In this document: positions 18,601-20,565 of the stretch, one piece after another
Numbering within the stretch: the stretch's first letter is position 1
How the letters are laid out: each line of letters begins with the position of its first letter
Source of the DNA: an uncultured Lachnospiraceae bacterium
GTDB lineage: Bacteria; Bacillota; Clostridia; Lachnospirales; Lachnospiraceae
Direction: 5' to 3'
NCBI GenBank assembly: GCA_945834545.1
Contig: CAMAHO010000003.1
Location: 1-36,320 of the forward strand
Length of the DNA: 36,320 nucleotides
Translations under genes and position numbers: made by a program
The notes under the pieces: model-generated
The model's database searches: none
What the model saw: only the letters and a program-made list of their open reading frames with translations
What the model was told of the DNA's origin: nothing

Positions 18601-20167
18601 CGGAAAAGCCGGAATCGATATGCCTGATAAGGTGTGCCCAAACTGTGGTGAGTTGCTGCACAAGGATGGCTTTGATATTCCTTTTGAAACCTTCCTTGGA
18701 TTTAAGGGGGATAAGGAGCCGGATATTGATCTGAATTTCTCAGGTGAGTATCAGTCCAAGGCACATAAATATACGGAGGTTATCTTTGGTGCCGGACAAA
18801 CCTTCCGAGCAGGAACCATAGGCACACTGGCAGATAAGACTGCATACGGATTGGCAGCCAAGTATTTTGAGGAGAGAGGCAAAAACAAGAGAAAGAGTGA
18901 GCTGGAGAGGCTTGCTTTGGGCTGTACCGGCGTTCGCAGAAGTACCGGGCAGCATCCGGGAGGAATCGTGGTCCTCCCTCTGGGGCAGGATATCAATTCC
19001 TTCACCCCTGTTCAGCATCCTGCAAATGATATGGAGACGGACACAGTCACCACGCATTTTGATTATCATTCCATTGACCACAATCTGTTGAAACTGGATA
19101 TTCTGGGGCACGATGATCCTACCATGATTCGTATGCTTCAGGATTTAACCGGTATCGACCCGACGACCATACCGTTGGATGGAAAGGATGTAATGAGCCT
19201 GTTCCAAAATACCAGTGCCCTTGGCATTGAGCCGGAGGATATCGGAGGATGTCAGTTGGGTGCATTGGGTATTCCGGAGTTTGGTACGGATTTTGCCATG
19301 GCCATGGTAATCGACGCGAAGCCCACCTCTTTTTCTGATTTAGTCAGAATTTCCGGTCTTTCTCACGGCACGGATGTGTGGGTCGGAAATGCTCAGGATC
19401 TGATTAAAAGTGGTGTAGCGACCATATCCACAGCAATCTGTACAAGAGATGACATTATGTTGTACCTGATTCAGATGGGAGTGGAAAGCAGTTTGGCCTT
19501 TACCATCATGGAGAGTGTGCGGAAGGGCAAGGGGCTAAAGCCGGAATGGATTGACGAGATGAAGGCCAACAATGTGCCTCAATGGTACATTGATTCGTGC
19601 CTTAAAATTAAGTATATGTTTCCCAAGGCTCACGCCGCAGCATATGTTATGATGGCGTGGCGTATTGCATACTGTAAAATTCATTATCCTCTGGCCTATT
19701 ACGGAGCATTCTTCAGCATTCGTGCAAAGGCATTTTCCTATGAGGTAATGTGCCAGGGAAGAGCAAACCTGGAGCGGCATATAGAGGAATATAAAAGAAA
19801 GGTGGCAGCCAACGAGAAGCTTTCCAATAAGGATAAGGATGCATACAGTGATATGAGAATTGTTCAGGAAATGTATGCCCGTGGATATGAGTTTGCGAAA
19901 ATCGATATCTTTAAGGCACATTCCAGATTGTTCCAGATACTCGACGGTAAACTGATGCCTTCCTTGACCAGTATTGAAGGAATGGGAGAGAAGGCTGCTG
20001 ATGCGGTGATGGAAGCAGCAAAGAATGGCCCCTTTTTATCCAAGGACGATTTCAAGCAGAGAACCAAGGTATCACAGACGGTAACGGATTTGATGGACAG
20101 GCTAGGCTTGCTTGGCGACTTGCCGGAAAGCAATCAGATTAGCTTATTCGATTGGGGTATGGGGTAA
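15671..20167 (+). CDS. polC: DNA polymerase III alpha subunit, PolC type
   Basis: 1498 aa; PHP domain ([15 protein letters not shown]), embedded DnaQ exonuclease ([22 protein letters not shown]), polymerase core ([36 protein letters not shown]). Confidence 0.98.
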   Translation: [1498 protein letters not shown]

Positions 20168-20213: not shown

Positions 20214-20377
20214 GTAACAGTTCAGTCGAGCCATTCGCAAAGTCGCACCTTCGGTGCTTCCTCGCTGCTACGCAGCTAGCTTTGCTCATTGATTGGCGCT
20301 TAGTTCATATCGAATGTCAGCTCCCAATTTATGCGAGCATAATTTGGAGCTGACATTCGATATGACTGAACTGTTAC
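20214..20377. repeat. Cloverleaf-like inverted-repeat element (MITE-like or structured RNA)
   Basis: GTAACAGTTCAGTC (20214-20227) / GACTGAACTGTTAC (20364-20377); GCAAAG / CTTTGC (20237-20242 / 20280-20285) enclosing GCACC-TTC-GGTGC and GCTGC-TAC-GCAGC; ~28-bp hairpin 20306-20334 / 20337-20364. Confidence 0.75.
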
Positions 20378-20407: not shown

Positions 20408-20436
20408 TTGCTTTTTTTAGAACTTTGTATTATTAT
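20408..20436 (+). promoter_or_regulatory. Promoter of tRNA-Glu
   Basis: TTGCTT, 17-nt spacer, TATTAT. Confidence 0.6.
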
Positions 20437-20464
20437 ATGCAAGTGCTGTTGAGGCAGCAAAAAT

Positions 20465-20536
20465 GGCTGATTGGTCAAGCGGTTAAGACGCCGCCCTCTC
20501 ACGGCGGAAACAGGGGTTCGATTCCCCTATCAGCTG
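20465..20536 (+). tRNA. tRNA-Glu, anticodon CTC, CCA not encoded
   Basis: GGCTGAT acceptor / ATCAGCT; D arm GTC..GAC; CCGCC-CTCTCAC-GGCGG anticodon arm; AGGGG-TTCGATT-CCCCT T arm. Confidence 0.93.
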
Positions 20537-20565
20537 TTTCGCTGAATTTCATAATTCATTGGAAG

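Follow-up and report, generated by a model that had tools for sequence, protein, structure and literature searches.

The ISBst12 group is a single-gene branch of the IS66 family of transposable elements, and one of its members, ISDge4, has the ends GTGACTACTCAGCA / GTAACTGCTCAGCA and an 8-bp repeat (PMC12898284); 8-bp repeats of IS66 elements are also reported in PMC11946415 and PMC3281130. The Rfam family RF01699 (Clostridiales-1) is recorded as a candidate RNA only, without a cis-regulatory role (Weinberg et al. 2010, PMC2864571). Bacterial short non-autonomous elements (MITEs) that give rise to RNAs include QMITE1/2 of Coxiella, in which some sRNAs derive from such elements (PMC5896051), and RUP, Correia, ERIC and others (reviewed in PMC2229807 and PMC10969869). 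The element described here is 164 bp long and lies between polC and a tRNA-Glu gene in a stretch of 36,320 nucleotides from an uncultured Lachnospiraceae bacterium (the window). Like the ISBst12 group it has an end of the GTAACTNNTCAG type and its family makes an 8-bp direct repeat, and the IS66 elements of its genus relatives likewise have a single transposase gene; unlike ISBst12-group elements, it is only 164 bp long and gene-free, with an interior that has no visible likeness to IS66 genes. With RF01699 it shares a full-length alignment on the minus strand and a long hairpin with a GCTTGC-type tip, followed by the core TGAGCA / TGCGAAT, whereas its family ends in GTAACAGTTCAG rather than the canonical TGATGCCAGGGTCAAAAG and duplicates 8 bp rather than 5-6 bp. 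QMITE1/2, RUP, Correia and ERIC are likewise short and non-autonomous, and their transcripts fold stably, but the window's family differs from them in hosts, ends and interiors, and its interior is that of a curated RNA family which occurs in two transposon chassis, the arms being hypervariable yet self-complementary. Our main reading, to which we assign a probability of about 85%, is that the element is a MITE that would be moved in trans by an ISBst12-group IS66 transposase and whose interior is homologous to Clostridiales-1. Its parts and setting are listed here by window coordinates.

20214-20377, no strand assigned: complete non-autonomous element (MITE) of 164 bp, with ends set by aligning 123 copies and by the 8-bp duplications at their targets
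20214-20227, plus strand: left terminal inverted repeat GTAACAGTTCAGTC, read from the window sequence; family-wide form GTAACAGTTCAG
20364-20377, minus strand: right terminal inverted repeat GACTGAACTGTTAC, from the window sequence and the copy alignment
20230-20242, no strand assigned: one strand of the core stem, GCCATTCGCAAAG (minus strand CTTTGCGAATGGC), with GCGAAT almost invariant
20280-20297, no strand assigned: other strand of the core stem, CTTTGCTCATTGATTGGC (minus strand GCCAATCAATGAGCAAAG), with TGAGCA nearly invariant; predicted pairing
20245-20257, no strand assigned: short hairpin GCACC-TTC-GGTGC, with compensatory changes in relatives (helix 7)
20264-20276, no strand assigned: short hairpin GCTGC-TAC-GCAGC, with compensatory changes in relatives (helix 6)
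20306-20364, minus strand: long near-perfect hairpin (arms 20306-20334 / 20337-20364), the arms hypervariable between copies and self-complementary
Within 20306-20364, minus strand: tip of the long hairpin, GC(T/C)(T/C)GC with one conserved unpaired base, from the aligned copies
20217-20374, minus strand: full-length match to Rfam RF01699 Clostridiales-1 (39.6 bits, gathering threshold 48, E 4.4e-7 in an 801-base search)
19721-20167, plus strand: 3' end of polC, the upstream neighbour, uninterrupted (stop codon 20165-20167)
20408-20436, plus strand: likely tRNA-Glu promoter TTGCTT - 17 bp - TATTAT, downstream of the insertion, with similar boxes in relatives
20464-20537, plus strand: tRNA-Glu(CTC), the downstream neighbour (tRNA call)

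The terminal inverted repeats are perfect over 14 bp, as the original prediction had read them, and both triloop hairpins, the branch that carries them and the long hairpin lie where it had placed them. It had overlooked an asymmetry near the tip of the long hairpin that is conserved: beside the tip, the minus strand has one unpaired base, an A in 69 of 76 copies. Folding of the minus strand yields -79 kcal/mol (z = -10.0 against dinucleotide shuffles) and that of the plus strand -81 kcal/mol (z = -11.3), and none of 200 shuffles reaches such an energy. The interior has no protein-coding content.

The BLASTN comparison with the host genome and its relatives that had been proposed for this sequence shows it to be multi-copy in its own bin (2.18 Mb in 258 contigs, 85% complete) and also present in genomes of the same genus. 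Thirty-nine BLAST matches in the bin, some of them self-inverse matches of the palindrome, correspond to about 30 copies, full or fragmentary, on unrelated contigs; many are cut off by contig ends, which is the usual behaviour of dispersed repeats in assemblies. When aligned, the own-bin copies have a single fixed boundary pair, GTAACAGTTCAG...CTGAACTGTTAC, and unrelated flanks, and a search with the end sequences yields further end-only and deletion derivatives. This is the composition of a MITE, a short gene-free repeated unit with terminal inverted repeats (14 bp and perfect in the window, with a 12-bp core family-wide). DNA-level matches were found in 16 of 61 genomes (37 from a single genus, the others from elsewhere in the order), all 16 belonging to the same genus, with 1 to 22 matches per genome outside the own bin. 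An exact-pattern scan of named genomes found at least 120 stretches, mostly labelled Lachnospiraceae or kin; carriers among the matches listed include uncultured Acetatifactor, Roseburia and Mediterraneibacter bins as well as Catenibacillus scindens, Mediterraneibacter catenae, Ruminococcus turbiniformis and others. Copies in gut Lachnospiraceae thus run to dozens. The plasmids searched with the element gave no match.

Several observations on partial and derived copies were made alongside. Six partial matches, covering the branch half, come from faecal phage records that lack annotation ('Bacteriophage sp.'; MT836949.1, MT836794.1 and four more). The branch half also stands in tandem arrays in one relative (G029:C10:13566-14064 and G029:C15:6037-6393), with spacings of about 104 bp and 150 bp, and partial tandem copies at L043 and L057 resemble these arrays. 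Two derivatives come from the window's own genome. One (L078:503-587) consists of the hairpin only, with both ends altered in step (GCACCAGTTCAG...CTGAACTGGTGC) and a palindrome that runs on into the flanks (TTTTAA/TTAAAA). The other (L074:524-617) is 94 bp long, lacks the long hairpin and has the flanks AAAAAATT/GAAAAATT, which match at 7 of 8 positions; the long hairpin may be dispensable for insertion, or may have been lost afterwards. A different palindromic repeat, GGGGACAGG...CATATGAC...GTCATATG...CCTGTCCCC, is found at two loci of the same genome (L061 and L080).

The flanks of every copy with a recognisable end pair were compared, 123 distinct copies from 48 assemblies, with the expectation given by random re-pairing of left and right flanks. 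An exact 8-bp direct repeat flanks 30 of the 123 copies against 0.3 expected, while exact repeats of 7 and 9 bp flank two copies each; another 17 copies have one mismatch in the eight positions. The exact 8-bp duplications are 77% A+T, compared with 51% for the loci. This peak at 8 bp indicates an integrating transposase with an 8-bp stagger. What is repeated is a discrete unit of 164 bp with GTAACAGTTCAG inverted repeats at its borders, and it inserts with an 8-bp AT-rich target duplication. By crude ORF calls, insertions are enriched between divergent genes (33/81, versus 63/310 intergenic gaps); the joined sites lie inside a long ORF in 27 of 123 cases, a crude figure on which we do not rely, as these ORFs are not real gene calls.

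The window copy itself is flanked by AAGGCTGT / CAATGTTG, between which no duplication is recognisable; either it is old or it is missing one flank. A search of the window's bin, 85% complete, for an IS66 gene (PF03050) gave no match, so that no donor is demonstrated in this genome. A cognate transposase would be expected alongside an active MITE, whereas an old copy does not require one. Given both results, the window copy is probably old and immobile.

At the polC locus the gap to tRNA-Glu measures 299 bp in the window and 79-142 bp in 11 of the 18 same-genus genomes in which it could be read, and in these 11 the tRNA-Glu promoter region past the insertion point is recognisable. The search for empty sites thus turned out positive in terms of gap length and the conserved right-hand promoter rather than of a base-exact junction, since the relatives are other species. 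The window copy would have landed between polC and the tRNA-Glu promoter, breaking neither. Three relatives (G022, G006 and G073) carry their own palindromic inserts in this gap, of which that in G073 (L316 / L341:522-838) has GTAACAGTTCAG ends, an unrelated interior and the exact 8-bp duplication AAGAAAAA. The position downstream of polC and the very stable hairpin might suggest a bidirectional terminator, or a chance palindrome fixed at this locus; however, the edge has no T-tract, copies with the same boundaries are dispersed in unrelated loci, and the gap is short in relatives, and we give this explanation next to no weight.

IS66 genes (PF03050) are present in genomes of the same genus, where the elements that carry them have ends nearly identical to those of the MITE and the same 8-bp duplication. 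The complete genome G006 contains two identical IS66 elements (L161 and L162) with the ends GTAACTATTCAG...CTGAATAGTTAC, one flanked by the exact 8-bp duplication ATTTTTAT and the other by AAAAAAAC; G017 contains one (L100) with the ends GTTACAGTTCAG/GTTACTGTTCAG and the 8-bp duplication CCGATTTT. Both types have a single long transposase gene between their ends (485 and 543 aa, respectively); the 485-aa protein (P0001) scores above the Pfam IS66 and NCBIfam transpos_IS66 cut-offs, and the 543-aa protein (P0002) above the Pfam IS66 cut-off but short of that of NCBIfam transpos_IS66. The MITE end shares 10-11 of 12 positions with these elements. We found no IS66 element in which both ends read exactly GTAACAGTTCAG; those that come closest differ at 1-3 positions. 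A decayed IS66 element in G147 begins GTAATTGTTCAGTCGCGCCA, compared with GTAACAGTTCAG(T/C)CGCGCCA in MITE copies, a likeness to the MITE left end of 18 of 20 bases. In the window's own genome, the variant MITE L065 carries ends exactly as in G006, altered on both sides, and the 8-bp duplication AAAATATT.

Judged by these ends and duplications, the mover of the window's family is most likely an IS66-family (ISBst12-type) transposase. A single-gene transposase of the ISBst12 group would be supplied in trans, would bind the terminal repeats, cut or copy the element, and insert it elsewhere through strand transfer with an 8-bp stagger. The original prediction had offered a MITE or a REP-like palindrome. 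The first is backed by the number of copies, their terminal repeats and 8-bp duplications, the empty gaps of relatives and the transposases whose ends match. A REP/RAYT system would account neither for the 8-bp duplication of the target nor for the IS66 ends that match. A REP/BIME-type palindrome moved by a Y1 (RAYT/IS200-like) transposase would also be short, palindromic and of high copy number, with an unpaired base in its hairpin; exact 8-bp duplications and ends held in common with DDE IS66 elements are at odds with single-strand Y1 transposition, and this makes such an origin very improbable.

The interior of the MITE, for which the original prediction recognised no named family, does have a relative in Rfam. 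The minus strand of the window element aligns to all positions (1-166) of the RF01699 model, scoring 39.6 bits against a gathering threshold of 48, and the element is a homologue, not a formal member, of Clostridiales-1. Matches to mir-2329 and other weak Rfam matches were discarded, their scores being far under threshold. The own bin also contains Clostridiales-1 copies of up to 152.7 bits, and multi-copy matches to RF01699 are patchily distributed, occurring in 47 of 101 genomes of the genus and in 37 of 196 genomes across several families of the order.

Because the literature records Clostridiales-1 only as a candidate RNA, we tested the canonical copies for mobility; among open-licence papers we found none that treats the family as mobile. 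In two genomes (G006 and G112; L343-L356, L149-L157) these copies have the ends TGATGCCAGGGTCAAAAG...CTTTTGACCCCGACATCA and 18-bp inverted repeats, TGATGYCRGGGTCAAAAG. An exact 5- or 6-bp direct repeat is present at 25 of 30 listings, against about 2 expected, or, as some copies are listed on both strands, at 16 of 19 distinct elements; no flank repeat of 7 bp or longer was seen. With their 18-bp inverted repeats and 5-6-bp duplications, the Clostridiales-1 copies are therefore miniature transposons, at least in G006 and G112. An autonomous partner or transposase with canonical RF01699 ends was sought at paired and solo ends in the same two genomes, and none was found. In the branch to which the window element belongs, a related interior sits in a second chassis, which differs in its ends and in the length of its duplication. 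As a MITE the element is of an ordinary kind; what is new is what it says of an Rfam family, and that a folded interior of one type occurs in two transposon chassis.

We aligned 66 copies of the window's branch. Two-sided compensatory changes affect 22 of 44 consensus pairs, and 93.5% of cells are paired compared with 82.5% in shuffles and 30-43% in slid controls; part of this pairing contrast stems from deriving the structure from the same sequences, which is not true of the compensatory changes. The earlier suggestion of a structured RNA has strong covariation in its favour, but the same covariation is equally compatible with a DNA palindrome. We consider the odds about equal between a transcribed structured RNA and a palindrome that is selected, or template-corrected, as DNA.

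On the first of these accounts, the element is primarily a structured non-coding RNA gene of the Clostridiales-1 type, with a putative minus-strand transcript, which is carried by a transposon and selected for its RNA fold. Besides the covariation, the full-length RF01699 match and the nearly invariant internal loop TGAGCA / GCGAAT favour it, as tandem G.A pairs would be possible there on the minus strand only. As a discriminator between RNA and DNA we set the number of G.U mismatches on the Rfam strand against that of A.C mismatches, leaving out the 'outer' and 'inner' stems owing to register problems. A first count in the long hairpin gave 83 G.U versus 34 A.C (ratio 2.44, cluster bootstrap 1.51-4.28), the terminal repeats being even at 35 versus 38. 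Under a stricter count the numbers fell to 53 versus 38, with an interval that includes 1, and canonical RF01699 copies gave 53 versus 48 and 20 versus 22. Wobble asymmetry was accordingly set aside as proof of RNA: it was significant in the first count, yet neither robust under the stricter one nor replicated in canonical copies. Further points weigh against an RNA gene. The short hairpins change on both sides almost without wobble intermediates (one pair is UA in 34 copies, CG in 16, GC in 15 and G.U in none), which speaks for correction at the DNA level; no promoter was recognised by eye within the element; and, by crude ORF calls, the minus (Rfam) strand is antisense to tandem-gene neighbours by 30:15, although the interval touches 1. 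An RNA gene is thus a serious but somewhat less than even possibility.

We hold it just as possible, again at a little under even odds, that the palindromic interior is a feature of the DNA, in which hairpin or cruciform extrusion brings the ends of the 164-bp element together and template-switch correction keeps the arms complementary without any RNA function. Within one genome the arms of the long hairpin differ by 42-44% between copies, against 11% for the branch and 9% for the tip, so that arm divergence is about fourfold that of the rest of the element, and self-complementarity is nonetheless kept (18 of 18 arm positions paired in 7 of 16 tabulated copies, 12-17 in the others). Outside the long hairpin most two-sided changes lack wobble intermediates, and the canonical copies are without strand asymmetry, as a DNA-level process would have it. 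Against this, conservation of the core (GCGAATGG, TGAGCA) and of the unpaired base near the tip exceeds the needs of a plain palindrome. We also considered the hairpin arms as guides and rejected this, the window arm occurring only in the window element, two other copies and one site with two mismatches.

A bolder and rather unlikely proposal is that the folded Clostridiales-1 RNA module is the portable cargo of at least two unrelated chassis, one of the 8-bp IS66 type and one of the 5-6-bp type with TGATGYCRGGGTCAAAAG ends, and would act at the RNA level for elements or hosts while its hairpin arms diversify yet remain paired.

With the window element read as a MITE that an IS66 transposase would mobilise, RF01699, an orphan RNA family predicted in 2010, becomes a mobile DNA element whose ends and target duplications are identified, and a probable transposase can be named for one branch of RF01699-like elements. 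Covariation alone failed to tell a mobile palindrome from an RNA gene, and two chassis with related interiors allow a clean test of whether it is for their RNA or for their DNA structure that mobile palindromes are kept. The finding also accounts for a class of repeats at which Lachnospiraceae genome assemblies seem to break.
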